Origin: Thereva unica
Taxonomy: Eukaryota > Arthropoda > Insecta > Diptera > Therevidae
Assembly (NCBI GenBank): GCA_949987705.1
Contig: OX465281.1
Coordinates: 141,904,876 to 141,968,875, forward strand
DNA length: 64,000 nt
Direction: 5' to 3'
Within the stretch, counting starts at the first letter, position 1; every line of letters starts with the position of its first letter. Shown here piece by piece: positions 2,936 to 59,090 of this stretch. The notes beneath the pieces are model-generated. The model ran no database searches. It worked only from the letters and a program-made list of their open reading frames with translations, and was not told the origin of the DNA. A program made the translations under genes and the position numbers.

Positions 2936-4459
2936 CTTTTATTTAACTTGCACTGTTTGTCGTCAAATCTTGGAAGTTAAATTTGACCCACTTCCCGGTT
3001 TCGGATAGAGCTGAAATTTTGCATACACGTTTAGTTTGGATGACAATGCAATCTGGCCATTTTGTAAAAATATCAAGATAGCGGTTCCAAAATGGCGCCC
3101 GCTTTTATTTTACTCACACTGTTTGTCGTCAAATCTTGGAAGTTAAATTTGACCCACTTCCCGGTTTCGGATAGAGCTGAAATTTTGCATACACGTTTAG
3201 TTTGGATAACAATGCAATCTGGCCATTTTGTAAAAATATCAAGATGGCGGTTCCAAAATGGCGCCCGATTTTTGAAATTGTGCTCCGCGGCCCTTTGAAA
3301 TGGGTATCAAATAAAAGGATATGACAGGTAGAACACAATAAGCTATGTGGCGTCATTCCAAATTCAAAATGGCGGACAACACTTACACTGTTTGTCGTCA
3401 AATCTTGGAAGTTAAATTTGACCCACTTCCCGGTTTCGGATAGAGCTGAAATTTTGCATACACGTTTAGTTTGGATGACAATGCAATTTGGCCATTTTGT
3501 AAAAATATCATGATGGCGGTTCCAAAATGGCGCCCGATTTTTGAAATTGTGCTCCGCGGCCCTCTGACATGGGTATCAAATGAAAGGATATGACAGGTAG
3601 AACACAATAAGCTATGTGGCGTCATTCTAAATACAAAATGGCGGCCAACACTTGCACTGTTTGTCGTCAAATCTTGGAAGTTAAATTTGACCCACTTCCC
3701 GGTTTCGGATAGAGCTGAAATTTTGCATACACGTTTAGTTTGGGTGACAATGCAATCTGGCCATTTTGTAAAAATATCAAGATGGCGGTTCCAAAATGGC
3801 GCCCGATTTTTGAAATTGTGCTCCGCGGCCCTCTGACATGGGTATCAAATGAAAGGATATGACAGGTAGAACACAATAAGCTATGTGGCGTCATTCCAAA
3901 TTCAAAATGGCGGCCAACACTTACACTGTTTGTCGTCAAATCTTGGAAGTTAAATTTGACCCACTTCCCGGTTTCGGATAGAGCTGAAATTTTGCATACA
4001 CCTTTAGTTTGGATGACAATGCAATCTGGCCATTTTGTAAAAATATCAAGATGGCGGTTCCAAAATGGCGCCCGATTTTTGAAATTGTGCTCCGCGGTCC
4101 TCTGACATGGGTATTAAATGAAAGGATATGACAGGTAGAACACAATAAGCTATGTGGCGTCATTCCAAATTCAAAATGGCGGCCAACACTTACACTGTTT
4201 GTCGTCAAATCTTGGAAGTTAAATTTGACCCACTTCCCGATTTCGGATAGAGCTGAAATTTTGCATACACCTTTAGTTTGGATGACAATGCAATCTGGCC
4301 ATTTTGTAAAAATATCAAGATGGCGGATCCAAAATGGCGCCCGATTTTTAAAATTGTGCTCCGCGTCCCTCTGACATGGGTATCAAATGAAAGGATATGA
4401 CAGGTAGAACACAATAAGCTATGTGGCGTCATTCCAAATTCAAAATGGCGGCCAACACT
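2936..4459 (+). repeat. Satellite array 1 (one 166-bp and five 269-bp units)
   Basis: The marker CTGTTTGTCGTCAAATCTTG recurs at about 2953, 3119, 3388, 3657, 3926 and 4195. The spacing is 166 and then exactly 269 bp four times; the last unit runs to about 4459. Units differ by only a few substitutions. The long unit has an extra segment of about 103 bp with CATGGGTATCAAATGAAAGG and AAAATGGCGGCCAACAC. Each long unit yields a 90-codon open frame on the minus strand that runs into the next unit; because 269 is not a multiple of three this is an artefact and not a gene family. Confidence 0.95.
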
Positions 4460-5016
4460 AAATTGCGGAAAGCTTATAATAGACTAAAAACTAGAAAATA
4501 TAACCGATCAACTTCCAATTTTGCACACACTCGTAGTTCGGGTGGTTAATGTGTATGAATGATGAGATGAATAGTTGAGTTAAGGGTGAGTTGATAATAA
4601 AGAAGCAATACACGTTACAAAAAATCACAAACAAACACAGAGATGCTGCTGTCAACTAAATTCAACTACTCAAATACTGAACTCATGTCCGTATGCATAA
4701 TTTCAACTAAACCCAGGTAGCAGAGCTGAGTCGAGTTCAGTCAACCTTAACCCAACTCGACTCCCGTTTACATGTAGTTAGACTTGGGTTCAACTTGAGT
4801 TCAACTCATCATGTATAAGTACTAAATGCAATCTGACCTTTTTGTAAAAAAATCAAGAAGACGGTTCCGAGATGGCGGCCGTTTTTGCAATTATGTTCCA
4901 CCGAGCCCACGACATGGGTATCAAATGAATACAGTAAACTGTGTGACGTAATTTTAAATCTAATAGAATTGCCATCATAAAATGGCGGAATACATATAAT
5001 AAACTAAAAAGTAGAA
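4460..5016 (+). repeat. Satellite-related spacer with an embedded insertion, copy 1
   Basis: The edges resemble the satellite consensus (CCAATTTTGCACACAC on the left, AATGCAATCTGACC and GAGATGGCGGCCG on the right). Between about 4543 and 4828 lies an unrelated block rich in AACTC/GAGTT words, as if a small element had inserted into a satellite-like unit. The same block occurs at 6305-6859, so the insertion came before the duplication. No clear terminal inverted repeat or target duplication could be defined. Confidence 0.7.
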
Positions 5017-5416
5017 AATAAAATAAATGGTTAAAAAAAATTTTTAAAAAAAATTCTTTACATTAACTAAAAAATGTACTGAAAAGTAAAAAATAAAAAA
5101 TATTTTAAAGAAAGCGTGAAATTTCAATTTTAATGAAAAAGTTAATTAAAAGAATGGCGCATTTTTCATCAAAAAATTTTGTTAGAATTTGAAATTAACA
5201 AAGCAAAAAATTGAGGGTTATTGTAAATCTCACGCGATTTACAGTTATATTTTCAATTTTTGATGAAAAATGCGCCATTCTTTTAATTAACTTTTTCATT
5301 AAAATTGAAATTTCACGCTTTCTTTAAAATATTTTTTATTTTTTACTTTTCAGTACATTTTTTAGTTAATGTAAAGAATTTTTTTTAAAAATTTTTTTTA
5401 ACCATTTATTTTATTT
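5017..5416. repeat. Long inverted repeat (palindrome), copy 1
   Basis: The left arm (about 5017-5177) and right arm (about 5256-5416) are near-perfect reverse complements of about 160 bp. They are separated by a loop of about 80 bp. Key words are AAATAAAATAAATGG at the outer end and GAATGGCGCATTTTTCATC at the inner end. A transcript through it would form a long double-stranded hairpin. The element recurs at 6860-7260. Confidence 0.95.
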
Positions 5417-6304
5417 AAATTCTTTTATTTACCTTACACTGTTTGTCGTCAAATCTTGGAAGTTAAATTTGACCCACTTCCCGGTTTCGGATAGAGCTGA
5501 AATTTTGCATACACGTTTAGTTTGGATGACAATGCAATCTGGCCATTTTGTAAAAATATCAAGATGGCGGTTCCAAAATGGCGCCCGATTTTATTTAACT
5601 TACACTGTTTGTCGTCAAATCTTGGAAGTTAAATTTGACCCACTTCCCGGTTTCGGATAGAGCTGAAATTTTGCATACACGTTTAGTTTGGATGACAATG
5701 CAATCTGGCCATTTTGTAAAAATATCAAGATGGCGGTTCCAAAATGGCGCCCGATTTTATTTAACTTACACTGTTTGTCGTCAAATCTTGGAAGTTAAAT
5801 TTGACCCACTTCCCGGTTTCGGATAGAGCTGAAATTTTGCATACACGTTTAGTTTGGATGACAATGCAATCTGGCCATTTTGTAAAAATATCAAGATGGC
5901 GGTTCCAAAATGGCGCCCGATTTTTGAAATTGTGCTCCGCGGCCCTCTGACATGGGTATCAAATGAAAAGATATGACAGGTAGAACACAATAAGCTATGT
6001 GGCGTCATTCCAAATTCAAAATGGCGGCCAACACTTACACTGTTTGTCGTCAAATCTTGGAAGTTAAATTTGACCCACTTCCCGGTTTCGGATAGAGCTG
6101 AAATTTTGCATACACCTTTAGTTTGGATGACAATGCAATCTGGCCATTTTGTAAAAATATCAAGATGGCGGTTCCAAAATGGCGCCCGATTTTTGAAAAT
6201 GTGCTCCGCGGCCCTCTGACATGGGTATCAAATGAAAGGATATGACAGGTAGAACACAATAAGCTATGTGGCGTCATTCCAAATTCAAAATGGCGGCCAA
6301 CACT
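5417..6304 (+). repeat. Satellite array 2 (166/269-bp units)
   Basis: The same marker word is found at about 5439, 5605, 5771 and 6040, so two 166-bp units are followed by two long units of 269 and about 264 bp. Sequence is nearly identical to array 1. Arrays 1 and 2, each followed by the same spacer and palindrome, show that a composite block was duplicated with different numbers of units. Confidence 0.94.
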
Positions 6305-11220: not shown

Positions 11221-11629
11221 TCTTCGCCGCCCTGAATGGTTCATTTACACAGGAACCTCAGGAAACCAGCAACAATGCACAGCCAATTCGAATCACCACC
11301 CGGGCCCCATCCAAGACGGAAATAGTAACCGCAATTCATGCGATGGCCAATGGTAAAGCAGCTGGAAAAGATGGCATCCCGCCAGAATTGTTGAAAGCCG
11401 AGTCAAGCCTCATAGCAGATGCGCTTCAGCCAATCCTACAAATAGCATGGAACACCTGTACCTTTCCGGAGGATTGGACGGAAGGTATCATAGTCAAAAT
11501 ACCAAAAAAGGGGGACCTAACAATATGCGACAACTGGAGAGGCATCTGTTTACTATCTACTGTGGGCAAAATTTTGTCCCACATATTACTATCTAGGATA
11601 AGTGAGGCAGTAGACCGAACGCTTAGGAG
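11221..11629 (+). pseudogene. RTE-like RT, N-terminal part
   Basis: An open frame from the truncation point reads through AMANGKAAGKDGIPPELLKA, LQIAWNTCTFPEDW and IVKIPKKGDLTICDNWRGIC, the first RT blocks of the RTE-like group. It ends in SRISEAVDRTLR at the LTR insertion. Joining to 18516 keeps the frame (QQAGFRKGRSC follows), so the host ORF was open when the LTR element entered. It cannot be functional now because the endonuclease is missing and the ORF is split. Confidence 0.9.
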
Positions 11630-13448
11630 TGTAACAGCATAATGGCGCGATATAAATAGTGGGCGCCACTTATGCGAGGTGTTACCCCCTTAGCCACAAG
11701 CCCGGAAGAGCATGGCCAAGGAGCCAACACCATACATAAGAAATAAAAAGAAAATCCGGAACTCCTACGCCGGCCACACGGAGTTGTCTAGCTCGCCGGA
11801 GGGGTCGTGGGGTGTGTGGCCGGGCCTTACCGCGGTTGGTTCACCACTTACCTGTGACTATAACACTCATCTTCCGACTCCATCCTTCGGCATCGCCTGA
11901 ACCGTGTCACTGTAGTGCGGTCCCGTGCCAACTCGTGGTATGGATAACCACCAGCTGACCAGGAAAGGCACTACCTAAGACTCCTGAAAAAAAAACGCCA
12001 TCCGCCCCAACCATTCAAAAAAGAAGAAATCTAGCACATTACTTTCATCATTACAACCATTACAAATTCTTTGTTTATTTCAGGTTCATACATCAATACA
12101 AGAACACCAGGAGTTAAAAATCAATATTCAATAATAATAAAGGCAATGAACTCGAATCATTGTCAGATACAACTACATCTACGTATTCAATTTCAAAAAA
12201 AATTGTATTTTACAATAGTAACTGCCCAGATAAATCCGGTCGATACTAGATATGGAAACGCGTCGCTTTGGTACCAATACGATTAGTTTCTTACAAATGA
12301 TATCACAATTATTGTGTTCAAGATACGGGAAACAATTGTCCCGGAAATAACAAGAAAAACTATTTTCACCAAATGAGCAAACAAACTGACAAAATCATGT
12401 GATTAAGATTAAAAAAAATTAATATGAACTGCGCTAAAAATTATTGTATAGTGCTAAATTAAAGAATGTACGAATATTTTATTTTATTTTGTGTATTTTT
12501 GTTTTTCTTTTGTTGCGTTTTGTTTTGTATTATTTATATTTAATGTATAATTACTTATTTCATAAGGTTCGTACTCACGAAAAATATAATCAGAAACCTC
12601 TTACTAGTAATACCATCCGAAAAACCTTGCTGAAAAATGGCTGCGGCCGTTGTTTTAGTAATTAGCTGCTGTCGGTCAAGGACTGCATTTTTCACCTCTG
12701 GAACGCCTCTGATACCACTAATAACCAAAATGAGCCACCGTTGCTCTTCTCCAGCACCTAATATGTCTCAAAAAAAATCTTCAGAATTGTTCCCCGTCGA
12801 TGAACGGTATTTCGGGGCATTGGCCCAAGGGACAAGAAAAGAATTAATCCAGATCTCCTCCTACTACACAATAATCTGCAGCTACTAAGATTTATATTAT
12901 TTATATCTTCATGGGTTGTTCGCCTTGCACCAGGACGACAGTCCACTTCCAAACACTAGTTTAGGTCTGCAACAGTACACTCTGGGACTCTGGATATCCT
13001 AGCTGGAACACGCCCATGCAAAATTTCAGCTTCGTGGATACTCTCTTCTACTTCATAAGCCGCAATCACATATGCTCAGCACCAGATCCAAAATTAATGT
13101 GCATAATAAGGAATCGCCGTCCAAAAAACTTCCTTTTACCCGGAGTATACCAATCAACGAAATCCCTTATTCAAAATTACACAACTGCCTTTCTTAAGAA
13201 TGGTTTTTTTTCCAAATTTTACAAATCCTTTGTGGACAAATTATATACTTTTTTTCCTTTCCGGACTGACTTCCTAACTGATTCCCCAATTTTTTCCTGA
13301 CTCATCCAATTATTTTTTTTTCTCGCCTACCTCCTTTAAAATTTTTCCTTTTCCTACAAAGTGATTTACAATAAATTTCCCATTACCTACAAGGTGATTT
13401 CCAAAATAAATTTCCCCACCCAAATAAATAATAATTCCGACCGTTACA
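11630..13448 (-). repeat. 3' LTR of the MIF4G element
   Basis: 1819 bp, matching 16693-18511 almost base for base at a constant offset of 5063. Its ends on the plus strand are TGTAACAGCATAATGG and TTCCGACCGTTACA. Short open frames in it appear identically in the other LTR and have no domain; they are not treated as genes. Long LTRs of 1.8 kb are unusual for gypsy elements, although the Osvaldo/Ulysses group has long ones. Confidence 0.95.
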
Positions 13449-14637
13449 TACCCTCGGGTCCACGAGGCCGACTCGCGAGGCAGTGAGGAGCCGAAAAAAA
13501 CGGACGGTTTTTATGCCGTAGGTCTAATATGTTTGGCGCCAATGTGGGACTCAACTCACGACCTGAGAATAGGAGTCTCATGTTCTGCTCTGACTGAGCT
13601 AGCCGGGCTGTTCAGGTTCTCCACAGAGTCGTCTCCATACGGAGTGAAAAAGGAAAAGTTGGGCGTACGGTCACAACCGTATTTTCGGGATGATCAGCCT
13701 GAAAAACCTCCCGGAGGAATATCTGAAGGTACAAATATCAGGCGGAAGACAATACCACATTGTCCCCCTACTGATATCTATACGTCTCCAACCATTCTCA
13801 CCCAAACCCAGGGTGCTTTCGCTCCATCGGCACAACCTCCAGCAATGCCATATTGCCTTCGACTCATCCCGGTGAAACGACAGACACCCAGTTCGCCGAG
13901 AGACCTTCTCCAGACTGACCGAAAATAAAAAAATATCATGGTGGTGTCTGGTCTGGCAGATCCGGATGAATACTTCATCAAAGCTTGGCCCCAGACGGCC
14001 AAGAGAAACAAGGAGGTGTACCATCCGCTAGGGAAGCTACCTAAGCGGACCACGCCGGGTACCCTATCATTAACCGGTGAAGCCGGCGAGATGCCTTCTT
14101 AGGGCTACTCAGAGGAGCGCTTGCTTCGATGACACTTCTGGCATTAGACCTAACTTCCCCCAAAGAATTTTATCACAATCAACGAAATTGTGCCAGGACA
14201 TTAACCTATGTAATTAAAAATTTAACGGTTAAAAATTCAATACAAATACGGGTTGGTTCCAAATTTCAAACTAATTTTTAACAGCTCCGTGACGTTCCAC
14301 CTAATAACTTGCAACGAAAGTATTATGTTACCAACTTAAAGCAGCTACACGACCAACTTCCACAATAACAATAGCTCATACTGATAAAAAAACGACTGAA
14401 AATAACGTGAATGATCGACTAGTAATAGACCAGCAACGAATACGCTGAATTTATAATCTAACATCGGACCCCGATATAATGATGTAGTGCTTACTATTCC
14501 AAAAAAACAAAACGTAGATATGCTCAGTGTACGCCTAGCAAGGTAACATACGATGCCTAACCAGGGTGTATAAAAGAACCAACTAAGATAATCGAAAATA
14601 TCATTAAAGCGGAGTTACGCAGGTGATTCAATAGAAA
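13449..14637 (-). other. 3' untranslated region of the MIF4G element
   Basis: The first 480 bp next to the LTR (13449-13930) match gypsy-3 at 58316-59065: the boundary word TACCCTCGGGTCCAC, the tRNA-like module, and one copy of a module of about 240 bp (13688-13927) that gypsy-3 has twice. From about 13935 to 14637 no match to gypsy-3 is seen. That part could be the 3' UTR of the captured host mRNA or sequence from another family member. No ORF here is supported. Confidence 0.75.
13534..13608 (-). other. tRNA-Lys-like module with encoded CCA
   Basis: On the minus strand the 75 nt begin GCCCGGCTAGCTCAGTCAG, have an anticodon-arm-like part TGAGACTCCTATTCTCA and end ATTGGCGCCA. Length, A-box (TAGCTCAGTCAG), anticodon stem and 3' CCA all resemble tRNA-Lys. 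The loop would read CCT rather than TTT or CTT, the B box is degenerate, and one acceptor position is missing, so it is a tRNA-derived module and not a functional tRNA gene. It lies in the sense strand of the element, 85 bp from the 3' LTR. A second version lies at 58401-58469. Confidence 0.8.
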
Positions 14638-15543
14638 TTACGAAATTAATTTTAGCACAGCCTCGAGAGTTACTTTAGGACCTTCAGGTGCAGTTCCTGA
14701 CGATGCTGAATTACTTAAACCACGTATTAGTGTGGCGATTTCGGCCGGACAGTCTACTTTTAGTTCACAACCTATTATCTTACAAATGCGACACAGGCAT
14801 TCAAGATTTTCGGGAGTTGGCTCCTGGAGTAACTGGGCCATTAACAACCTTACATTTTGGCCGAGTTCCATCATATGCGATCCCCCCAACTTTAATTGTC
14901 CATATAATTCAGCGAAAAATAGAGTGATACCTCTCACCCTTCGACGGTGCATTTGCCTGTAACGCGAAATTTCATCCAGATGATAAGCTACCGTTAACCT
15001 AAGCAAACTCCTAAAAATACTATTTCCCACCGGGTTCATAGAGTCAAACAGTACATATAACTTAGCTCCTGTGTTAACGAAAGTCTGTTCGTCAATGGAT
15101 TGATTGTAAATAATTTCCATCACATTGCTTAACACAAAATGATTATCCTTCACATCTGCAAATACAGTACATGCTCTCGACGCTATGGTATCGAAAGATT
15201 CCGGCTTTTCTTTTAGACAATTAACAATAGTCCATGCGTAATTCACAGCTTTAATCTCGTCTGCTGTCGGTCCACATCTCCCTACCGTGCGAGAAGTTGA
15301 GTCATGTTCTGCCATCGGCGCAGTCTGGATGGCAGTCGACGACGAAGGATAGCCCCCAGTCCCAGATAGTGGTAGTCGTGATACCGAGCATCTCCTAACT
15401 GGAGTAAAAGCCAGGATGACAGGTGACCGTCGAGGTACAAACTCCTTTGCGAGAGGAGATAAAGATGAAAAAATATGTGGCCTTCGTAGCACCTTATGCC
15501 GGATGGGCAGGCCATAAAAGGTGCGTCCGCACAAGTCGCCCAT
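14638..15543 (-). CDS. PAM2-MIF4G protein, PAIP1-like, captured by an LTR retrotransposon
   Basis: The intact 301-codon ORF is the only one in the internal region. Residues 26-37 (SSLSPLAKEFVP) fit the PAM2 motif, which binds the MLLE domain of poly(A)-binding protein. Residues about 97-275 form a MIF4G HEAT domain: IIYNQSIDEQTFVNTGAKL, RRRVRGITLFFAELYGQL and ENLECLCRICKIIGCELK are its typical helices. PAM2 followed by MIF4G is the layout of PAIP1; eIF4G, CTIF and MIF4GD are less likely because they lack this pairing. By family knowledge such proteins link PABP to eIF4A and stimulate or tune translation in the cytoplasm. The first ATG is used because PAM2 precedes the next in-frame ATG at residue 77. 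There are no stops, frameshifts or introns, as expected for a retrocopied gene. It would be transcribed from the right-hand LTR. Confidence 0.9.
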   Translation of the reverse strand: MGDLCGRTFYGLPIRHKVLRRPHIFSSLSPLAKEFVPRRSPVILAFTPVRRCSVSRLPLSGTGGYPSSSTAIQTAPMAEHDSTSRTVGRCGPTADEIKAVNYAWTIVNCLKEKPESFDTIASRACTVFADVKDNHFVLSNVMEIIYNQSIDEQTFVNTGAKLYVLFDSMNPVGNSIFRSLLRLTVAYHLDEISRYRQMHRRRVRGITLFFAELYGQLKLGGSHMMELGQNVRLLMAQLLQEPTPENLECLCRICKIIGCELKVDCPAEIATLIRGLSNSASSGTAPEGPKVTLEAVLKLIS

Positions 15544-16676
15544 GATTACCTACTATAGTATTAACAAACAAAAAAAATTCCCCACGATATAATCAAAACA
15601 AAAACAAACGATAACCAGTAAGAAGAAGGTTGCATTAAACAAATCAACTAGAAGTTAATAATATTGTGTGTAACCCCCGAAAAAGAATCAACAGTGATTA
15701 GTGTGTAAAACAATCAAAGTGTATTAATGTCTATATATATTAGTGTATAAGAGTGAGTAATTAGCTTTAATTCAGTATAAGCGAGGAATGGTTGAGACGG
15801 ATAACATTTCCCCTCAGGGCTCCCGCATGGTCGATGTCCTCGATGGCAGTTGGTGAAAACTATGAAGCATAGTCATCACCAAGTGTCATCAAGGTCGCCG
15901 ACACAGCTTCAGGTCCGCACCGAAAGAAGGACGGAAACAAAAAGTCAAAGGGCATAGTCACGAAAGGGAAGGAAACTTCTTCAAAAATAAAAAAAATTTA
16001 GAAGTAGTCCGCTGTCCAGCCACTCCTGAGCTACCTCTCGGAAAATCAATCAGGAGGGAAGAACAGACAGAGAAAAATGGACGCAGGAAATAAACAAAAA
16101 ATAGAATTTACTAATCTGAATGGACCTTCCGAAGGAACAAGGGGCGCAGTGGCAGGCGTTAACACGCCTGTTACCAAAGACGGTTAAGCCCTTGTCCCAA
16201 CTTCGAGACCATCAGGAAAAATTAAACAGGATCTTGACCTTGGACTGACGCAGTGTCAGGCGGTATCACGTCTGTCAACACAGACATCGACCAAGAACCA
16301 AGACAAAGATGAACAGCTACTACCCCTTCACGCATGGCCAAGCAAACACCGCTTGTTAGCAAGCCGTGAAGGATAGCACGGTTCGAAGCTACTCCAAAAC
16401 GAAGAAGTTACCGCAGCAGAGAACGGGTAGGCCTAAAAGCGAAGACAAATAAAAATTCACATAGAATTTGGACAATGATGCTGCAAAAAAATTCGAAAAA
16501 ACAGACAAAGGCTAAGGCTTCGCGGTACTACCTTAGCCCACGGCGAGCGCTGGGTAAACGTGGTGAACCATAAACAAAAAATCAAACGTTGTCCGTGAAG
16601 GCACAAGTGGTACTGAACCAAAAAAAAATTTAAACTTCAAGGTCCGTGTAGGACAGTCAACGGGCTTTAAAAGCTT
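15544..16676 (-). other. 5' leader of the MIF4G element
   Basis: About 1.1 kb without a supported ORF. Large parts match the gypsy-3 leader at 63599-64000, for example CGATAACCAGTAAGAAGAAG, GGTTGCATTAAACAAATCAA and TCGATGGCAGTTGGTGAAAA. Similarity breaks off at about 15575-15600, just upstream of the MIF4G start codon, which marks the 5' junction of the captured segment. Leader retention fits a need for RNA packaging signals. Confidence 0.85.
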
Positions 16677-16688
16677 CGTTGGGCGCCA
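16677..16688 (-). promoter_or_regulatory. Primer binding site, tRNA-Lys type
   Basis: The minus strand reads TGGCGCCCAACG, 4 nt inside the right LTR. This is complementary to the last 12 nt of eukaryotic tRNA-Lys including CCA; complementarity ends after that. It fixes the element orientation as minus and explains the right LTR as the 5' LTR. Confidence 0.85.
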
Positions 16689-16692
16689 TTTA

Positions 16693-18511
16693 TGTAACAG
16701 CATAATGGCGCGATATAAATAGTGGGCGCCACTTATGCGAGGTGTTACCCCCTTAGCCACAAGCCCGGAAGAGCATGGCCAAGGAGCCAACACCATACAT
16801 AAGAAATAAAAAGAAAATCCGGAACTCCTACGCCGGCCACACGGAGTTGTCTAGCTCGCCGGAGGGGTCGTGGGGTGTGTGGCCGGGCCTTACCGCGGTT
16901 GGTTCACCACTTACCTGTGACTATAACACTCATCTTCCGACTCCATCCTTCGGCATCGCCTGAACCGTGTCACTGTAGTGCGGTCCCGTGCCAACTCGTG
17001 GTATGGATAACCACCAGCTGACCAGGAAAGGCACTACCTAAGACTCCTGAAAAAAAAACGCCATCCGCCCCAACCATTCAAAAAAGAAGAAATCTAGCAC
17101 ATTACTTTCATCATTACAACCATTACAAATTCTTTGTTTATTTCAGGTTCATACATCAATACAAGAACACCAGGAGTTAAAAATCAATATTCAATAATAA
17201 TAAAGGCAATGAACTCGAATCATTGTCAGATACAACTACATCTACGTATTCAATTTCAAAAAAAATTGTATTTTACAATAGTAACTGCCCAGATAAATCC
17301 GGTCGATACTAGATATGGAAACGCGTCGCTTTGGTACCAATACGATTAGTTTCTTACAAATGATATCACAATTATTGTGTTCAAGATACGGGAAACAATT
17401 GTCCCGGAAATAACAAGAAAAACTATTTTCACCAAATGAGCAAACAAACTGACAAAATCATGTGATTAAGATTAAAAAAAATTAATATGAACTGCGCTAA
17501 AAATTATTGTATAGTGCTAAATTAAAGAATGTACGAATATTTTATTTTATTTTGTGTATTTTTGTTTTTCTTTTGTTGCGTTTTGTTTTGTATTATTTAT
17601 ATTTAATGTATAATTACTTATTTCATAAGGTTCGTACTCACGAAAAATATAATCAGAAACCTCTTACTAGTAATACCATCCGAAAAACCTTGCTGAAAAA
17701 TGGCTGCGACCGTTGTTTTAGTAATTAGCTGCTGTCGGTCAAGGACTGCATTTTTCACCTCTGGAACGCCTCTGATACCACTAATAACCAAAATGAGCCA
17801 CCGTTGCTCTTCTCCAGCACCTAATATGTCTCAAAAAAAATCTTCAGAATTGTTCCCCGTCGATGAACGGTATTTCGGGGCATTGGCCCAAGGGACAAGA
17901 AAAGAATTAATCCAGATCTCCTCCTACTACACAATAATCTGCAGCTACTAAGATTTATATTATTTATATCTTCATGGGTTGTTCGCCTTGCACCAGGACG
18001 ACAGTCCACTTCCAAACACTAGTTTAGGTCTGCAACAGTACACTCTGGGACTCTGGATATCCTAGCTGGAACACGCCCATGCAAAATTTCAGCTTCGTGG
18101 ATACTCTCTTCTACTTCATAAGCCGCAATCACATATGCTCAGCACCAGATCCAAAATTAATGTGCATAATAAGGAATCGCCGTCCAAAAAACTTCCTTTT
18201 ACCCGGAGTATACCAATCAACGAAATCCCTTATTCAAAATTACACAACTGCCTTTCTTAAGAATGGTTTTTTTTCCAAATTTTACAAATCCTTTGTGGAC
18301 AAATTATATACTTTTTTTCCTTTCCGGACTGACTTCCTAACTGATTCCCCAATTTTTTCCTGACTCATCCAATTATTTTTTTTTCTCGCCTACCTCCTTT
18401 AAAATTTTTCCTTTTCCTACAAAGTGATTTACAATAAATTTCCCATTACCTACAAGGTGATTTCCAAAATAAATTTCCCCACCCAAATAAATAATAATTC
18501 CGACCGTTACA
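16693..18511 (-). repeat. 5' LTR of the MIF4G element
   Basis: 1819 bp, the partner of 11630-13448. It should hold the promoter and start site for the element RNA. The right edge borders the GGAG target duplication at 18512-18515 and the resumed RTE reading frame. Confidence 0.95.
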
Positions 18512-18515
18512 GGAG

Positions 18516-19701
18516 GCAGCAGGCCGGATTCAGGAAGGGCCGCTCATGTATTGATCATATCAACACCTTACGAATTATAGTGGAGCAGTCTACTGAATTC
18601 CGATCCCCCCTTTACCTTGCTTTCGTAGATAATGAGAAAGCGTTCGACTCGGTCAATAGGAGCTTTATATGGCAGGCACTACGGCGACGTGGACTGCCTG
18701 ATAAAATAATAGAATTGATAAAAGCCCTATATAACAATTCCAAATGCAGAGTTCTCCATAATGGAAAATTATCCGACAGCTTCGAGGTGAGCTCAGGAGT
18801 ACGACAAGGATGCCTACTCTCGCCTTTACTATTTCTTATAGTAATAAATGACATCCTTGTCGGCGCTCTAGATAGTAGAACAGGCGGCATACAATGGGGT
18901 TTGTTAGACCGCCTTAAGGATCTCGACTACGCAGATGATATCTGTTTGCTGGCCCACAGACACCAGGACCTCAAAAACATGATTAACAATTTGGCAACAG
19001 AAAGTAGTCCAGCAGGCTTAAGGCTAAATCCGACTAAAACTAAAGAAATGCGGATAAATGTAAACACCATTGAACGAACAGCGCTGAATAACCGTGACGT
19101 GGAACTGGTAAATAAATTCTGCTACCTCGGTAGTATTATTACCGAAAATGGCGGTGCAGAAGAAGATGTCAGTTCCAGAATAAATAAAGCACGAGGCGCA
19201 TATGCATGCCTGTTCCGCATATGGAGATCAACGGAGATCTCAACTAACACCAAATTGCGGCTGTTCAACTCCAACGTGAAGGCAGTACTTTTGTACGGTT
19301 GCGAAACATGGAAAGTCACCCAATTCATCACAGGGCGCCTACAAGTCTTCATCAACAGATGCCTTCGTCGTATCCTAAAAATTCGCTGGCAAGATAGAAT
19401 CTCAAACGAAGAACTATGGCGCCGTGCCGGCCAAGAAAGGATAGACGACCAAATCAGGCGAAGGAAATGGAATTGGGTAGGCCACACCTTGCGACGCGAA
19501 AACGAAAATCTAGCCAAACAGGCCCTTGACTGGAATCCGCAAGGATCCCGTCGAGTAGGACGACCTAGAACAACGTGGAGGAGAACCCTACTAGCAGAAG
19601 CCGCAACAACTGGGAGATCCTGGTCGGAGCTGAAAGCTGTCGCGCAAAACAGAGTCCGCTGGAGGGCAACTGTTTCCGCCCTATGTCCCATGAGGGATTA
19701 A
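18516..19701 (+). pseudogene. RTE-like RT, C-terminal part
   Basis: Continues the ORF of 11221-11629. It begins QQAGFRKGRSCIDHINTLRI, then VRQGCLLSPLLF, the catalytic box DYADDICLLA near 18930, and the C-terminal part GHTLRR, ALDWNPQGSRRVGRPRTTWR and RWRATVSALCP. The stop is TAA at 19699-19701, followed by the ATG-rich 3' tail. The frame also stays open leftwards into the LTR up to 18424, but this is accidental. All RT catalytic residues seem present; inactivity comes from 5' truncation and the insertion. The clade is called RTE-like from the C-terminal signature and the microsatellite tail. Confidence 0.92.
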
Positions 19702-20750: not shown

Positions 20751-21116
20751 AGTTTTATTTCTTTTCATTTAAATAAAAGAAAAATAATAGAATAATATAA
20801 AACTTTATTTTAAAAATAAAATATATTTATTAAAAACGGCTTTAAAGCTCTGCGACGGTCTTAAGACTGACTTAATTAATTTTTCATCATGTTAGATTAT
20901 GTTTTTCTGACCATTGCAATTTTTGCTGACCGATACATTTTCTTATCTTTGCAGGTAAGTTTTTATGGGAACAGAGTACTTTAAGTTTTCTCATTAGATA
21001 TGGTAAGTATTGAAATATGAACCTTGGTCACGTTGTACTAACGGAAATGTCGCGACCATGGGAATATTAGAAGGAGTTTTTGAATTGTTTCGCTAAGGAT
21101 TTTTGCTGACATAACT
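20751..21116 (-). repeat. Errantivirus-like element 3' LTR
   Basis: 366 bp, with ends AGTTTTATTTC and GACATAACT on the plus strand. The internal side carries CCTCCCTCCTT, i.e. a polypurine tract AAGGAGGGAGG on the minus strand directly before the LTR. The env frame runs into this LTR before stopping. Confidence 0.95.
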
Positions 21117-22564
21117 CCTCCCTCCTTAAATTTAGAACTCTCCTGATGTTCTACAAATTTATTAGTAATAGTTAATGAACTTTTCGATTTTGAAATATAT
21201 ATGTAAATTGCAATAATCACAAAAACAATTACAAATATAATAGTAGACGTTATTGAATATATGTAGTGAGCTTTTCCTTCATATTTTATTTCTTTTATCT
21301 CTTTGATATTCTCTACTTGTTGAAGGATTATATCATCAAACATAAGTTTCTTATTTAGGTTTTTTATATTCTCTAAGTAGTAAGGGATTGAAAATTTTTG
21401 TTTGAAACTCTTTCTATTATCTTGTATAATATAATTATTGATTTTAATCGAGCAATTGCTAAACTTAATAAAATAATTTCCATTTAATATAATTTCTTCA
21501 TTATTGAAAGTACTATTAAATTTCACTGATCTTTGATTTTTTGCTAATATGGTTCCCTCTCCTAATTCAATTATTTCTGACATATTATTAAAAGTTTTTT
21601 CGCAATTTCTTTTTATTAAGCAATTGTTACATAATTCTAGGTTTTTTAGATCAATGTAGCTAAAGGTTTGGTTTTCATATTTTACAATTTCTAAAGGGCT
21701 GAAGTTAAATTCTTTATTACCGTCATCACTTATAGGTATGAGAAGCATTTTCTCTAATGTTATAATTTCTTTTGGAATTCTTATTACAAATATTAAATTA
21801 TCATTATTTCTTAATACAACATCTAACTTTATATTTTGTAATTTCTGAAAATCTACCTTATATTCTAGGATTTCCTCATTTGTCAGAATGTTACTGTGTA
21901 TTATACCTATTCTTGCGGAAGCTACATTATCTTGTATTTGTTCTACGATATCCTGCAATATTTTTAGTTTCAAGGCAAAGTCAGTATACAATATTTGTCT
22001 ATAAGTTACTTTGTTATAATTTTCTATTGCATTTAATTTCTCCGATAAAAGCTTTCTATCTTTTCCTATTGTTTCCTTTAATTTTTGGAATGTTTCATTA
22101 AAATTTTTATTGATCTTTACTTGAGAATTTAAGTTCTGTATTATATTATGATTGTTTGAGTCGATTACGTCAAGGTGTTGTTCTAGTTCTTGTCTGTCAG
22201 CGTCATCCATCGTCCCATATAACCACTTATGTAATGTGCCTACAAAATTAAAAAGTCCTCGTTTTTGTTTATGAGGTATTAGTGTTTGGATTCTATTGCG
22301 AATGCTTTCTAATTGGTGTTCTAAAAATATGGCCCTATCCTGTAAGTCTGATATTTTAATGTTATTTTCTAAATCGGTAAGTATATCAATTATTTCTTTA
22401 GGATCAATTATATGTAGTATGGTATTATAATCTTTTACGATATCAACGTCTTCCAATTTAATTTCTGTGTACCCCGATTTTGTTGTGATTTTCTCAATCA
22501 TAAGATGTGCCTGGGTTAGTATTAGCATCCATGAGATTAGAAATAGCCTGAGGATCCATTTCAC
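21038..22564 (-). CDS. env: Envelope (F-like) glycoprotein of the errantivirus-like element
   Basis: The intact 508-codon frame overlaps the end of pol by 71 bp. It has a hydrophobic signal peptide (residues about 3-20), a basic furin-type cleavage site (HKQKR, ending at residue 102) followed by a hydrophobic segment, several possible N-glycosylation sites, and a C-terminal membrane anchor at about residues 433-460 with a short tail. This is the layout of errantivirus Env proteins, which are related to baculovirus F fusion proteins and act at the host cell membrane in particle entry. The stop lies inside the LTR, as in related elements. In this family env is usually expressed from a spliced RNA; the splice sites were not located. 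No disabling break is seen in env. Confidence 0.93.
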   Translation of the reverse strand: MKWILRLFLISWMLILTQAHLMIEKITTKSGYTEIKLEDVDIVKDYNTILHIIDPKEIIDILTDLENNIKISDLQDRAIFLEHQLESIRNRIQTLIPHKQKRGLFNFVGTLHKWLYGTMDDADRQELEQHLDVIDSNNHNIIQNLNSQVKINKNFNETFQKLKETIGKDRKLLSEKLNAIENYNKVTYRQILYTDFALKLKILQDIVEQIQDNVASARIGIIHSNILTNEEILEYKVDFQKLQNIKLDVVLRNNDNLIFVIRIPKEIITLEKMLLIPISDDGNKEFNFSPLEIVKYENQTFSYIDLKNLELCNNCLIKRNCEKTFNNMSEIIELGEGTILAKNQRSVKFNSTFNNEEIILNGNYFIKFSNCSIKINNYIIQDNRKSFKQKFSIPYYLENIKNLNKKLMFDDIILQQVENIKEIKEIKYEGKAHYIYSITSTIIFVIVFVIIAIYIYISKSKSSLTITNKFVEHQESSKFKEGGVMSAKILSETIQKLLLIFPWSRHFR

Positions 22565-25500
22565 CTGAAAAATATTTTTTTCTTTTAATGTTTGAGCTAT
22601 GAATATTATCTAATTTGGATTTAATATATTTGGGCTGTTCTTTGTGCCTGACACTTTTATAATTCTTAATATATCCCTCTGTTCTGTTTTCGTTGTACTC
22701 TTCCCTTTTCGCATTACGCTTATTAATATTTTTGATTTTCGCTTCACATAAGTTATTGTAAATTACGTCTTTGTCGCAAAGTCCCTCTTGAATATTTATT
22801 GGTTTCTCTTTTGTCACAGAATGGTAGATGTTATTGTACCATTCAATGGCCTTACACATTTTTTCTTTTATACTAAGATTATTACTTTCGATACCGAGTG
22901 TTCTAATTTTTTCAGCTATGGTGTTATGTAGTCGCTCCACATCGGAGTTTCCCGTATGGTTGTTAGGTTTGACTAAATGAAGTTCTATGTTCTCATTTCT
23001 AAGGTAATCTTTGATGTTTACACTTCTGAATTCATTGTCGGTTATTAGTTTTTTGAAGTGGCCTCTTTGAGATTTAAATTCTCTTAATTTTTCTATGATT
23101 GTTCGATTATTCCTGTCTTCGAGGTAAAATGCTGTTGCGAATTTGGAGAATCTGTCAATGAATGTTAGGAAATTTGCTTTCGAGTTTGTGTAGACATCCA
23201 TATGAATTATTTGTTTTATATCTTTTGGAGTCTCTGTAAGTTTAAATTTTTCCTTGATTGGGTTTCTGTCATACTTAACTTTGTTGCAAGTGTCGCAATT
23301 GTTGATATATTTTTGGATTAATATCTTTAAGTTTTGGAAAATATATCTTTCTTTTTAGTCCCTGATAGTTTTCATTTATGCCGGAATGTCCTGTCTCGGT
23401 CTTGTGATAATTGTGTATTGCTTTATATGTTTCTTCCTCCGTTTTCATATTTTTTGCGTGAAAAGAGCATCTAACAAATTTTATATTTGGAATATCATCA
23501 AAGAGTTCAATAACTTTCTGTTGGAACTTATTATATTGATTATCGCTTAATTCTGTGTATACGGCTATTTTGCCTGGTTTAATATATCTCCTAAGGATGT
23601 CTGTTAAATTATTTTCTAAGTCATTAGAGTCTATATATATAATTCGGTTTTTATGAATAAATTCAGTTTCAATTTCTTTATTATTAGTTAAAATTATCTG
23701 AGTTTTAAAACGATTAACTGTAGTATCTAAAATAGGAATATGATTGTTTAGGTTTTCGTCTTGTGAATGTATCGTCTGATTATCCGAATCAACGTTGTAT
23801 TGAAGTGACGATGTGTTTTCATGATTTTGGTCAGTACGTTCTTCTTCATTAAGATTCACTTCCTCTTTATTTTCTTCAATATTTATCATGTTTATTTCAT
23901 TCGTATCCGTATTTACTCTACTAAGGAAGTCGGCTACTTTATTATCCTTTCCATGGATGTATTCCATGTTAATATTATATTCTCCAATTTTAAGTAACCA
24001 TCTATATAGTCTTGGATTAATATCTGTCCCTTTGGTCTTGGTATAAAGCCATTTTATTGGTTGATGGTCTGTCAGTAAATCAAATTTGACACCGTATAAA
24101 TATGGACGAAAGTAGTTGATAGACCATACTATGGCCAGAAGTTCTTTTTCCGTCGTCGAATAATTTCTCTCATGTTCATTGAGAGTTCGACTTGCGAAGC
24201 ACACTGGATGGTTATCCTGTTGAAGAACGCCACCTATGGCGTAATTACTAGCATCTGTTATAAGTTTAAATTTTTTGTTGAAGTCCGGATACTTCAGTAT
24301 CGGGGCTTCAGTTATTAAACGTTTTAGTTTTTCGAAAGAATTTATATAATTGGAATCATTAACATTAACCTTAGCATTTTTCTTGAGGAATTTCGTCATA
24401 GGCTGGGCTACTTTTGAGTAGTCCCTGATAAATTTGCGATAGAAGCCAGTGATTCCTAAAAATGACTTGATCTGTTTTTGGGTTTTTGGTAATTTTAATT
24501 TGATAATATCTTCGATTTTCTTTGGATTCGGGCTAACTCCTTCGGGGGTTAGTATGTGTCCAAGATACTCTGTTTCTTTTGAAAAGAATTTACATTTGTC
24601 AAATTGTATCTTAAGGTTATGTTCTCTTAACTTCCTGAAAATTTGATTTAGGCTATTGACATGCTCTTCAAGTGAGGTGGAGAAAATGAGTATATCGTCG
24701 AGATATACTACACAAATCTTATTGATGAAATCTCTTAATACGAAGTTCATCAGCCGTTGGAAGGTGGCTGGGGCGTTCTTTAGACCAAAGGGCATTCTTA
24801 CGTATTCGTAGTGCCCTTGTGGTGTAGAGAACGCAGTTTTCCTCCTATCTTCTTCCTTAACGAGGATTTGGTGGAATCCTTTCGCTAGATCGAGCGTAGT
24901 AAAATACTGTGCTCGTCCCAATTTGTCAAGGATACTTTCTATATTGGGTATCGGAAACTTGTCATCAACTGTGATCTCGTTGAGTTTCCGATAATCAATG
25001 ACAATTCGCCATTTCTTCTTCCCAGAATTGTCCAATTTCTTAGGGACAATCCACAGGGGGCTGTTATAGGGGGAGTTACTCTCTCGAATTATACCCTGCT
25101 TAAGCATGTCGTTAATTTGTGAGAGGACTTCCTTTTCATGGACTTGTGGATATCTGTAAAGTCTACAATATATGGGTTTGTCACTAGTTGTGATAATTTC
25201 GTGCTCTATATCTGTAGTAGCAGTGAGCTGATCTCCTTCTTTAAAGAATAGATCTTTAGAATGTTTAAGAATTTTAGTTAAATGGACCTTCTCTTCGGAG
25301 TTGAGGTCACGAAATAGGTTTTGAAATTCATTTGTGTTACATGGTTCTAATTGATTTATATCTTGACATTTATACGGACAACTGCTTGAAAATTTTATTT
25401 TATTGCCGTTAACTATTAATATTTCATTCTCCATATCTATTACGGCTCCTAAAGGTTTCAATAAATTTTGCCCTATAATAGCATCAAATGGTTTATTGTA

Positions 25501-25767
25501 GAATTTGGTAAGCTTCCACAACATGTATGCATTTTCATTAAATTCTCTTGGTAAATTTGTTTTAATTTGCTTTTTAATAGTAGTTTTTGCATTTAGGGTG
25601 TTAAATATTAAAGGTACTTTCAAAAATTGTCTTTTATATTGTGGTAACTTAGTTTCATTTAGCAAAGAAGTGGAAGACCCTGTATCTAATAAGCAATTGA
25701 TTTTGTTTCCATCTACTGTGAGATTTACTATTGGTAGGTATGTTTTCGAGGTGTTGAAAGAAAATTT
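22494..25767 (-). pseudogene. pol: pol polyprotein with one frameshift (PR-RT-RNase H-IN)
   Basis: The protease has LLDTGSS near 25690. RT has [27 protein letters not shown] and the catalytic YLDD box near 24700. RNase H has ITDASNYAIGG near 24250 and ends with KVADFLSR. Integrase has an H2C2 finger (GHSGINENYQ onward, about 23300-23410) and a core with D, D and E in HMDVYTNSK, ITDNEFRS and NSDVERLHNT. The frame changes at about 23300 inside the zinc finger: one frame stops at 23275 and the rest of integrase, open to 22494, lies in another frame. Pol is in the -1 frame relative to gag, so it is presumably made by ribosomal frameshifting. Confidence 0.93.
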
Positions 25768-26714
25768 ACCTCTTGTTGAATATGGTCAACGTCCATAGGT
25801 TCTGACCTATGTACTGTTGTAGCATTGTGTCTATGATATTGGTTTGATCGATTACCAGATGGGGTTTGTCTAAAATTGCTACCGTTCGGATTATTTCTTC
25901 TAGGTTGTACCTGGTCATTAGAGTAGTTATATCTAAACTATCCCGGATTATCGTTTCTAAAACTGTTTTTACTCTGGTAGTTTCGTCCAAATTGTCCGGA
26001 ATTATTGTTCCTTACATTATTATTATTAGCTTGCCTAGAGTAATATTGCATTTTATTTAGGTTAATCTGTTTTACTTGAATATTATTCACTTTGGGTTTA
26101 CGATTTTCTCTAATTAATCCTAAGTTTTCTAACGTAAAATAAGCTTCTCGGAGAGTTTTCACATTTATATTTAACACAATAGATGCTAAGTTTGGATCAA
26201 TATTATCCAAGAATGTTTTTAAAATTAATGATTCGTTAGTTTTTGGATTAAATTCAATTGGTTTCTTAACGTCATATTCATATTTTTCATTTAATTGACT
26301 TAAAATTATTTTTAGCATATTATAATAATCTCTTACTTGGTAATTTCGAACAGAAAAAGCTTCATGGTAAAGTTGATGGTAGGACTTCTGGACGCCGAAA
26401 TTGTTGACAAGTTCCTGTTTAATTTCTTCCCAAGTGGCGTTGGACCCCAAGGTCTGGATCACTTCTAAAGCTGCTCCCTGTATTTTGTTTATTATTATTC
26501 GTTGAAAGATGTACACTTTTATGTTAGGATGTTCGTCGAGTACTGGTAAAATCGTGTCCACTTCCCTAAAAAATGAGGTGAGGGCATAACTTCCATCCCC
26601 TCTGAACTCTGTTATCCTTTGGGCATCCTTGATCATATCGTTAACGGTAAGTATGGCTGTAGTATTCCTGTTTGGAGTTGCAGCAGTTCCTTGAGAATCC
26701 TGTTGTGAAGTCAT
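25728..26714 (-). pseudogene. gag: gag with an in-frame amber codon
   Basis: Starts MTSQQDSQGTAATPNRN. The capsid-like part (TWEEIKQELVNNFGVQKSYH, LKTFLDNIDPNLASIVLNIN) is followed by an Asn/Arg-rich tail (NNNNVRNNNSGQFGRNYQSK). A TAG at 25938-25940 stops the frame after about 258 codons, yet the same frame continues with the same composition to RSEPMDVDHI, a typical errantivirus gag end, and stops at 25728-25730. The TAG is therefore either a mutation or a readthrough codon. No zinc knuckle is present, as is common in errantiviruses. Confidence 0.88.
25761..25767 (-). promoter_or_regulatory. Candidate -1 frameshift site between gag and pol
   Basis: The minus strand reads A AAT TTT in gag phase (GTA AAT TTT), a heptamer of the X XXY YYZ form. 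It lies in the gag-pol overlap about 30 bp before the gag stop. Pol continues in the -1 frame with the protease active-site box downstream. An alternative slip site is the AAAA run a few codons later. A downstream stem or pseudoknot was not evaluated. Confidence 0.5.
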
Positions 26715-29498: not shown

Positions 29499-30695
29499 AT
29501 GGATATACAAGCGCGTGCGGTTTATCGTGGTCAAGTAACACGTTTATCAAAAACCGCGAGTGAGTATTTAGCGGCTCCAGAATCGCATCCCACAACGGAT
29601 AATCCTGAATGATGGGATGAAATCGCGGAAGAACTAGCAGTGTTACTACAAAGGTTGAAAACCGCTACAGATGGCTTATCTAAGGCTAATCAGCAGACTG
29701 CTGCCAGTATTAAAGCTGAAGATTATGAACGCGAAATGGAAAGTATTGCTGAGTATGAGGATAAAGCCGTTGCGGTGATTGCAAGATTAACGGTGCGGTT
29801 GGAAAATGTTAAAAAAATGCAGCATGGGCTTTGCAATAACGGGTTGACACGTGATCGAGCTACAGAGTCTCAGCCTAGAAACACCGCCCAATGTGTAAAA
29901 TTGCAAAAATTACCTTTGAAACATTTTTCAGGTGATCATCGCGACTGGCTCCCTTTCTGGGAGCAATTCCGATCCGCTGTACATGAGAACCCTTCTATGT
30001 CAGGCGCTGATAAATTTAGTTATCTTCTCACTGTATTGGAAGGGAAAGCCGCAGAAGCTGTCGGTGGATTCATCCCAACAGAAAAATGCTATGAGACGGC
30101 TATAGCATTGCTGCAAGAGGAATTTGGGAAAAATGATAAACTCATAGACAAAATTATGCAGCAATTTATGAGTCTACAGGCAATATCGGTCAAGTCAGAC
30201 TTCAAGAGCTTACGGCGTCTTTATAATACGGTTATAACCTGTATCCGTTCATTAAATGCTTTAAATGTTCCTACAAGTCATTATTCTCTTATGCTAAAAT
30301 CAAAGTTGTTACGGTGTCTCCCACATGATTTGAGAGTGGAGTTTTATAGGATAAATCCAGAAAATAATTCAGAAGAAGCCAGTGAAGACAAGATTGAAGC
30401 AAAAAGCACAGCATCTATACCAGAAAGTAGTGGTTCTATCATGATCGAGGGCGATAGGCAGCTGAAGGCTCTCTTAAAGTTTATAAAAAGAGAAGCAGAA
30501 TCACTTGAAAATTCCTTCGATGAAAAGGACAGTCGAAGGTCACAAAAATTATATACGACAGCAGCTGGATTACTTACTACAGATGCAGGCAATCGGTGCC
30601 TTTTCTGCAAGTCGAATTGTCATGTAACAAGCGAATGCGACGGCATACACTCTCTCAAGCAACGAAAGGACATTCTAAAAAAAGATGGTCGATGA
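29499..30695 (+). pseudogene. gag: BEL/Pao gag part with in-frame stops
   Basis: ATG at 29499 (MDIQARAVYRGQVTRLSKTA). A TGA at about 29610 interrupts the frame, which then continues in phase with EIAEELAVLLQRLKTA. KLPLKHFSGDHRDWLPFWEQ and ALLQEEFGKNDKLIDKIMQQ are the DUF1759-type gag region of BEL/Pao elements. A second in-phase TGA at 30693-30695 replaces a residue of the zinc-knuckle-like cysteine motif (FRCTLRGHSAKKC follows). Normally gag and pol form one frame in this family, and the pol frame here is indeed in the same phase. Confidence 0.92.
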
Positions 30696-38113: not shown

Positions 38114-39138
38114 TCAAATTTTATCACCAAATTGTAACATAGAAATTATTGGCTTATGATAACTATAATAAGATGCATATACTTCAGAATAAATTTTGTA
38201 CAAGAATCTTGAAAAAACGGCATCAACTGTAGTACAGTATTTCGTTGTGTACTGTGCTGGATCATTATTCATACTCAAATTAAATGTGTCAGATAAAAAG
38301 GATGTGAAGATTTTAAATTCGTCTTTTTCATTGAAGTTAATATTAAAGTCTCCAGATAATATTAGTGGAAGTTTATGACATAGTAATTTATATTCTCTCT
38401 CAGTATATTCTAACAGGGATCGATGAATAAATAATATAATATCCTCAATCTTTTGACAAGACAATACTACAATAACTATTTCATGATCTTTTCTTATTTT
38501 ACAAATCACTGAACAAATGTCTCCAACTGATGAATGTCTAGTACTCAATGCACTCATGTTTGACAAAATAGTTTCCATATTTGGTTGGCAAATGTTGACA
38601 CTATCTTTATAGTTTTGGTATATTGCGACCCACCTGCATGAATATTGTCTCGTTTATAATGAGAAATGCAATTGAAATTAGGAAGGATAATTTCTTCTTC
38701 ATTTCTCATCCATGTTTCAGTAAGTAATAGAATATTACAATTTTCAGTAACTGGATCAATGAAATCTAAAATATGAGTTTTTAAACTTTGGCAATTAAAA
38801 GTTAATACTGAAAGACCTATTTTGTTACAAATCATATCCAAAACCATTTGCGTTCTGGTCTGTAATGTGTTTAAAGATATTCTTTGAAATTCTTGCAGCA
38901 ATTTCTCTGTTGATCTAGCTTGCTTTCGATTATGATAAAACTTAAATTTCGTTGGATCATCTTGAGGTGTTACAATATACAAATTTTCTATATTTGTTGC
39001 ACGAGATAACGCAACGTATACAAGTTCTTGGGAATGATCTTTGCTGTACTGGTAAACAATTTCACTGAAAGTTCCACCCTGCGATTTATGTATGGTCATA
39101 GCGCAAGCCGCAATTAAAGGTGGTGTTTCACTTGTCAT
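38114..39138 (-). pseudogene. Helentron helicase C-terminus fused to endonuclease
   Basis: From the right, ACAMTIHKSQGGTFSEIVYQ and ELVYVALSRATNIENLYIVT are the last helicase motifs of Pif1/Helitron RepHel proteins. After a linker, GLSVLTFNCQSLKTHILDFI and LLLTETWMRNEEE begin an APE-like endonuclease, continuing after a frameshift near 38560 with LPLILSGDFNINFNEKDEF and TTKYCTTVDAVFSRF. Helicase plus C-terminal endonuclease marks Helentrons rather than canonical Helitrons. Rep and most of the helicase are missing: the coding remnant stops exactly at the satellite edge (39139). Confidence 0.88.
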
Positions 39139-58315: not shown

Positions 58316-59090
58316 TACCCTCGGGTCCACAAGGCCGACTCGCGAGGCAGTGAGGAGCCGAAAAAAACGGACGGTTTTTATGCCATAAGACCTAATTTGT
58401 TGGCGCCAATGTGGGTCTCGACTCACGACCTGAGAATAGGAGTCTCATGCTCTAGTGAGTTAGCCGGGCATACGTGAACTAGTAGATAATATACGAACCG
58501 AGTGAAAAGCTAACTATAATTTAGGTTCATGCTTGCAACCGTAAGTTGCGATGGCCAGTCTGGAAAAATCTCCCGGAGAAATATTTGGAGCTGCGAATAA
58601 CAGGCGGAAGACAATACCACATTGTCCCCCGACGGATATCAACAAGTCTCCAAACATTCTCACACAAACTCCGGGTGCTTTCGCTCCACCGGGCCAGTCT
58701 CCAGCAATACCACATTGCCTTTGACTCCCCCCGGTGCAACGATAGTCAAACTGTCTGCTGAGAGATATTCTCCAGACTGACCGAAGAGGAAGGACAGTGT
58801 GAGGAGTGTATACAAACCTGTTGACCGTTGGACAGTCTGCAGGTTCTCTCGGAAGAATATCTGGAAGTACAAGGATCCGGCTGAAGGCAATTCCATATTG
58901 TCCCCTTCCGGCTCCCGTAATCTTTCAGAAATTCTCGCCCGAACCAGTTTCCCCTCGCACCATGGAGTTAATCTCACGCAATCCCACATCGCATGTGACT
59001 CACCCCAGTAGGACGACAGGCAACTAATTCGCCGAGGGAAACCTACGCCTGACCAAAAATCAAAAGGTGAAGAGGACCCCTTGAGGAAAA
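58316..59090 (-). other. gypsy-3 3' region with repeated modules
   Basis: Next to the LTR lies TACCCTCGGGTCCAC, as in the MIF4G element. Two degenerate modules of about 240 bp (about 58542-58800 and 58826-59065) share the order CTCGGAAGAATAT or CCCGGAGAAATAT, CATATTGTCCCC or CACATTGTCCCC, and GACTGACCG or CCTGACCA. The MIF4G element has one such module (13688-13927). No ORF is supported; the role is unknown. Confidence 0.8.
58401..58469 (-). other. tRNA-Lys-like module with encoded CCA, second version
   Basis: 69 nt on the minus strand: GCCCGGCTAACTCACTAGAG at the start, TGAGACTCCTATTCTCA as anticodon arm, GTGAGTCGAGACCCAC as T arm and ATTGGCGCCA at the end. It is shorter in the D arm than the copy at 13534-13608 but better in the T arm. 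It lies at the same distance from the LTR, so it is an inherited part of the family. Confidence 0.8.

Follow-up and report, generated by a model that had tools for sequence, protein, structure and literature searches.

Non-autonomous long terminal repeat (LTR) retrotransposons of the LARD and TRIM types lack gag-pol and presumably move with the proteins of a partner. They are not known to have conserved coding capacity. Host-gene capture by LTR elements is known, and published accounts describe maize Bs1 as an LTR element with captured host coding sequence, in that case segments of three host genes other than the one considered here (PMC7264820, PMC13317346). Here we describe a Paip1-like gene carried by an LTR retrotransposon in a 64,000-nucleotide stretch of the genome of the fly Thereva unica (assembly GCA_949987705.1, contig OX465281.1, positions 141,904,876 to 141,968,875 of the forward strand), referred to below as the window. 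The element (11630-18511) is a recent, gag-pol-less, non-autonomous Ty3/gypsy-type LTR retrotransposon, and its family is large, old and still active. Unlike Bs1, the family carries one translation-factor gene over about ten groups, in the place of gag-pol and with its protein under selection; selection on the open reading frame (ORF) also separates it from TRIM and LARD elements. The open-licence literature searched yielded no description of a retrotransposon that carries Paip1 or MIF4G, and the signs that the captured gene serves the element are unusually strong.

PAIP1 stimulates translation and binds PABP through PAM2, which contacts the C-terminal PABC/MLLE domain, and PAM1, which contacts RRM1-2, while PAM2 is also tied to eIF3 binding (PMC8167360). 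SARS coronavirus exploits Paip1 and raises translation of its own RNA; its SUD binds the host protein, whereas the elements described here carry a Paip1-like gene of their own (PMC8167360). Mimivirus, a giant DNA virus, has a cap-binding complex, viral IF4F with vIF4G, and differs in this from the Paip1 elements; no mention of PAM2 was found for it (PMC12621921).

Comparison of sequences across the genome lends good support both to the capture of Paip1 sequence by the elements and to purifying selection on the ORF between and within groups. The family is a non-autonomous Ty3/gypsy-type lineage with a shortened Paip1 relative in gag-pol's place, and we see about an even chance that the protein acts in cis via PABP. 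Throughout this lineage of retrotransposons a translation-factor gene has become a permanent component, maintained by selection during diversification, and a likely donor and a gag-pol relative are present in the same genome.

The Paip1-carrying element and its gag-pol relative

The features of the window element are as follows.

11630-18511, minus-strand sense: whole element
16693-18511, minus: 5′ LTR, 1819 bp, paired with 11630-13448, 1 mismatch in 1819
11630-13448, minus: 3′ LTR, 1819 bp, paired with 16693-18511
11626-11629: target-site duplication GGAG, left copy, in the flank
18512-18515: target-site duplication GGAG, right copy, in the flank
16677-16688, minus: tRNA primer binding site TGGCGCCCAACG, 4 nt after the 5′ LTR
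15577-16692, minus: 5′ leader segment matching the gag-pol element, aligned pieces 87% and 77%
14638-15543, minus: Paip1-like ORF, 301 codons, ATG start, TAA stop
15430-15471, minus: PAM2 segment FSSLSPLAKEFVPR, codons 25-38, PF07145 above cut-off
14737-15228, minus: MIF4G domain, residues 106-269
13449-13923, minus: 3′ internal region in common with the gag-pol element, by alignment

A preliminary description, made from the letters of the window, had claimed the paired LTRs, the GGAG duplications, the primer binding site and an intact ORF with PAM2 and MIF4G, all of which were confirmed. Its claim that gag and pol are missing also held: no gag or pol domain scored above cut-off in the three of eight other ORFs (at least 80 codons) scanned inside the element, and alignment with the related gag-pol element is limited to LTR ends, leader and 3′ region. 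The LTRs have TG..CA termini, and the insertion site is a non-LTR reverse-transcriptase ORF, now split into 11343-11629 and 18512-19701. No clear polypurine tract was seen by eye in the 40 nt preceding the 3′ LTR, and the two Rfam matches in the element both fall well short of their gathering scores. A tRNA-like stretch (13534-13608, minus), in which ARAGORN under relaxed settings calls a 70-base tRNA and which we take to resemble the primer tRNA-Lys, follows the coding part and precedes the 3′ LTR. Its counterpart in the gag-pol element, near 58400, is 85% alike over 85 columns and receives no ARAGORN call; in both elements the stretch may be a copied primer.

The encoded protein has a conserved N-terminus followed by PAM2, a linker and MIF4G. 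In Pfam, MIF4G scores 43.4 bits (cut-off 30.8) and PAM2 (PF07145) 21.4 bits (cut-off 20; residues 24-38), while a sequence search of the Protein Data Bank returns human PAIP1 (E 1.8e-8). The predicted fold also best matches human PAIP1 and would be that of the PAIP1 middle domain. A protein database gave no match to the window ORF (E 0.001) or to a 12-row alignment (E 0.01); PAIP1 itself was not returned either, so the database probably lacks the relevant animals and this null says nothing about taxonomic spread.

Upstream of the ORF, the full leader (15544-16692, minus) comprises 1149 nt with 13 upstream ATGs. AGs lie 8 and 11 nt upstream of the window ORF start codon, and an AG shortly before the ATG is common to many element groups, as judged by eye. 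Because of the upstream ATGs and this recurrent AG, the ORF may be translated from a spliced RNA.

The related gag-pol element lies at the far end of the window.

56530-66620, minus: gag-pol Ty3/gypsy element (56530-64000 inside the window, the last 2.6 kb beyond it)
56530-58315 and 64832-66620, minus: its LTRs, 99.7% identical
64816, minus: its primer binding site, the same as that of the Paip1 elements
62380-63489, minus: gag (Ty3_capsid)
59091-62485, minus: protease, reverse transcriptase, RNase H and integrase, in two overlapping ORFs

This copy is probably inactive, since its reverse transcriptase is divided between the two overlapping frames. A search of the genome with its gag gave 111 scored matches, own copy included, at 82-100% (of 2,625 candidates), and 105 of the 111 are without a stop. 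It is likely that an element of this type is the helper of the Paip1 elements. The window Paip1 element aligns with this gag-pol element in pieces of 77-93% identity, which cover the LTR ends, the leader and the 3′ region. For another Paip1 element (L027), identity to the gag-pol element is 99% across the entire LTR, 90% in the leader and 97% in the 3′ region. In L027 a 1.3-kb cassette replaces a 4.7-kb segment containing gag-pol; one junction is 290 nt upstream of the gag start and the other 55 nt downstream of the pol stop. The ORFs of L027 and L052 are only 50% identical, whereas leader identity to the gag-pol element is 90% for L027 and 88% for L028, a member of the same group as L052 (the L028 piece contains some LTR). 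Such dissimilar ORFs beside similar leaders point to exchange between element backbones, as would be expected if different RNAs share particles.

Capture of Paip1 sequence and spread of the family

The genome searched comprises 910 Mb in 930 contigs, and the human PAIP1 middle domain finds its closest counterpart there in a locus (L019, contig C2) that lies on a different contig from the window and has an open frame of 409 codons from the ATG. The frame has an N-terminus similar to that of the elements, the same PAM2 core, a MIF4G domain and an acidic C-terminal tail, and there is no LTR pair or primer site around it. Its SSLSPLAKEFVP is letter-for-letter identical in the window ORF, the two proteins are 58% identical, and Pfam at E 0.001 reports only MIF4G. 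We take this locus as the host Paip1 gene and the likely donor. As in the host gene and human PAIP1, PAM2 precedes MIF4G in the element ORF, which differs from the host gene in its shorter linker and in lacking the acidic tail, at the place of PAM1; unlike either gene, it is borne by LTR elements in many copies.

Evidence of capture comes from one element, L024, which aligns with gaps to the 200 nt preceding the host start codon (presumed 5′ untranslated region) at a local score of 71.5; none of 200 shuffles scored above 40, and the other elements read all stayed at or below 37.5. We read this upstream sequence as direct evidence for capture of Paip1, from RNA or DNA. The element sequence is homologous to the identified host gene and lies in sense orientation relative to the element, and no host sequence from downstream of the gene was found in the elements at E 0.01. 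The preliminary description had proposed uptake of a PAIP1-like mRNA as a retrocopy that was kept open. Uptake and maintenance of the frame are borne out by the host gene, the L024 upstream sequence, the intact copies and the measurable selection; the source may have been RNA or DNA. A comparison of introns, suggested there as a check, found the gene but yields no test, as the host coding sequence is itself without an intron; a search that matched genes exon by exon, and may have missed such a gene, turned up no Paip1 with introns at any other place in the genome. The ORF tree comprises 30 (host included) of 43 distinct ORFs. The human PAIP1 middle domain proved too distant to root it, and the host gene lies in the tree's unresolved centre, so that one capture cannot be separated from several. 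For the A, B, E and F lines we favour a single capture, because their aligned proteins have in common both an ORF end (..VLKLIS or VLELIS) and N-terminal residues.

The window ORF has 201 matches genome-wide, with 131 of 288 candidates scored. Among the matches listed, 18 are full-length, free of stops and 99-100% identical in protein, and the remainder step down to ~40% identity, mostly without a stop. The loci read fall into about ten groups (A to M), between which the divergence of the ORF proteins reaches about 60%. The element had been called young, which holds for the window insertion, with its single LTR mismatch; the capture, given the distance between groups, is old. Twenty loci of 8-10 kb were read, comprising 19 element loci and the host gene. 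The primer site TGGCGCCCAACG recurs as the same 12-mer in 18 of the 19 related element loci, and the LTR pair is at least 97.9% identical over the aligned part in 16 (incomplete in several), 87% in L028 and not found in L021 and L022. Perfect 4-bp target duplications flank 11 of the 19. Near-identical LTR pairs and target duplications at these loci indicate that several groups with very different ORFs moved recently.

Counted stop to stop, the frame is at least 180 codons in 50 of 52 ORF loci read; a PAM2-like motif is present in 46 and its strict form in 43. These 52 rows count one place twice (L007, L032) and include the window's own copy (L003), but neither the host loci L019 and L029 nor the window sequence as such; the loci were chosen from similarity-sorted tables, which biases the counts towards intact copies. 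Paip1-type ORFs also occur head to tail in the genome (G000), with a spacing of ~5.06 kb at C4:58686877-58702956, ~4.6 kb at C1:147170422-147175905 and 4.2-4.7 kb at C2:78985526-78995112. These spacings approximate the combined length of an LTR and an internal region, and the arrays probably arose by LTR recombination; four of the C4 copies have identical ORF sequence.

Selection on the ORF and the proposed role of its protein

Codon differences were counted by a Nei-Gojobori type method on MAFFT alignments and compared with neutral simulations from one start sequence under a simple mutation model. In eight pairs between groups, the ratio of replacement to silent change (pN/pS) is 0.39-0.50. 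Simulated sequences averaged 3.4-9.0 stops and pN/pS near 0.87, and 0 of 500 simulations in each pair were as low as observed. Six of the eight pairs lie within two clades, F, J, M and G, H, I, which consist of element ORFs and do not contain the host gene; the remaining pairs, A-E and A-F, connect lines around the tree's unresolved centre. By segment, with 11 representatives pooled, pN/pS is 0.22 for PAM2, the most constrained of the five, 0.32 for the N-terminus, 0.51 for MIF4G, 0.71 for the C-terminus and 0.78 for the linker, and silent sites have changed throughout (pS 0.43-0.58).

A second comparison was made within the window's own group, where 18 copies were read and 15 used, four identical tandem copies being counted once and a 95% copy with a changed start (L030, L062) left out. 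The 15 distinct copies hold 34 codon variants. Those present in at least two copies, which have been passed on through copying, comprise 7 silent and 0 replacement changes (p 5e-5 against a neutral share of 0.76), whereas variants private to one copy comprise 7.5 silent and 20.5 replacement changes and are neutral-like (p 0.36). Protein-altered copies therefore seem rarely to be parents of further copies, though sister copies should supply intact protein, and this difference between multi-copy and private variants suggests a cis preference of the protein.

A mechanism in cis would run as follows. The Paip1 elements would depend for movement on Gag and Pol from gag-pol relatives, and the PAM2 of the element protein would bind the MLLE domain of PABP. 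Newly made protein would engage PABP on the poly(A) tail of the RNA under translation and so raise that RNA's translation, its stability or life span, or its packaging into the particles of the gag-pol relatives. The benefit would go to the RNA that encodes the protein, since no replacement variant was found in two or more copies although intact copies exist in the genome, and the outcome would be a private gain for a parasite of a parasite. The captured protein thus probably promotes the use and spread of the RNA of the very element that encodes it. A more specific form of the proposal, which we put forward tentatively and consider rather doubtful, is a two-part system of a gag-pol RNA and an RNA with a captured PABP-binding translation factor that serves only its own RNA, with an advantage in initiation and persistence through many family splits.

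Several observations weigh against action in cis through PABP. The conserved start is missing in 5 of the 52 ORF loci, and translation past the 13 upstream ATGs needs splicing or some other device, none of which was found. Group G (L025, L026, L043, L053) has a degenerate PAM2 of the SSPLSKEFVL type and has been recently active; in its two fully read loci the LTR pairs are 99.4% and 99.9% identical, and the MIF4G part is full-length. The short-ORF groups (L045-L048, L054, L055; 183 codons) retain the N-terminus and PAM2 and end within MIF4G, having lost its second half, and a genome search with the human PAIP1 middle domain returned many more copies of similar frame length. The acidic C-terminal tail is missing in 11 of 11 aligned element ORFs. 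The between-group comparison is weak for close pairs: 300 simulations span a range that contains A-C (0.45), with A-B1 (0.42) and A-D (0.52) at its edge. The within-group comparison depends on 7 mutations present in more than one copy, among copies chosen for their protein similarity, and codon ratios are unable to separate translation from packaging or RNA stability.

Packaging is the basis of the best-surviving alternative, in which the protein is an adaptor that brings its own RNA into the particles of the gag-pol partner via PABP on the tail, and perhaps via Gag contact through MIF4G. The element has no Gag of its own, its leader and 3′ region are in common with the gag-pol element, and the strongest constraint falls on the predicted PABP-binding part. 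MIF4G, however, is known from translation and RNA processing, and nothing that would point to Gag binding was found. A PAM2 pattern was likewise not found in the partner Gag or the first pol frame, nor a PAM2 match in that Gag in Pfam at E 0.1; the one match, near the end of the second pol frame, is taken as chance. We consider an adaptor of this kind unlikely.

Somewhat less probable still is action in trans, by which the protein would compete with host Paip1 for PABP and shift host translation to the element's benefit; competition of this sort was one role offered in the preliminary description. Retention of PAM2, as the most constrained segment, in ORFs without the host C-terminal tail would suit a competitor, as would short ORFs that keep PAM2 and only part of MIF4G. 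A cell-wide benefit should, however, let replacement variants spread, and the multi-copy variants are all silent. The evidence leans to a role for the element's RNA rather than competition with host PAIP1.

Very improbable is a constraint on the RNA, such as a packaging or splicing signal inside the ORF, in place of the protein: the groups resemble one another strikingly in the N-terminal block and the AG before the ATG recurs, but silent sites of the same block have changed (pS 0.43 in the N-terminus, 0.56 in PAM2). That the captured ORF is a passive passenger, open merely through the youth of its copies, is very improbable and largely contradicted, for although the window copy is very young and neutral change is compatible with the pair A-C, groups at 40-72% protein identity remain open where neutral simulations gain stops; a part beyond that of a passenger, as first suggested, follows from selection on the ORF.

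With action in cis via PABP as the preferred reading, the family poses a testable general question, namely how a non-autonomous element dependent on another's proteins obtains a private advantage. It also provides a natural series of Paip1 variants: full, MIF4G-cut and PAM2-degenerate.

Other features of the window

Several further mobile elements lie in the window. An intact envelope-like protein of 508 codons (21041-22564, minus; Pfam Gypsy and Baculo_F) adjoins gypsy-like gag and pol frames, recognised by eye, at 22494-26714, and together they make up an errantivirus-like element. At 29640-33665 a frame with DUF1759 is followed by a pol-like frame, presumably an element of BEL/Pao type. A non-LTR reverse transcriptase occupies 44740-46467, and a hAT-type transposase with DUF4371 lies at 52808-55408. 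Large tandem arrays are found at 39121-41457 (unit 128 bp) and at 2936-6304 (units 166/269 bp), and a repeat of the 269-bp type, identified by eye, also flanks the group G locus L025.

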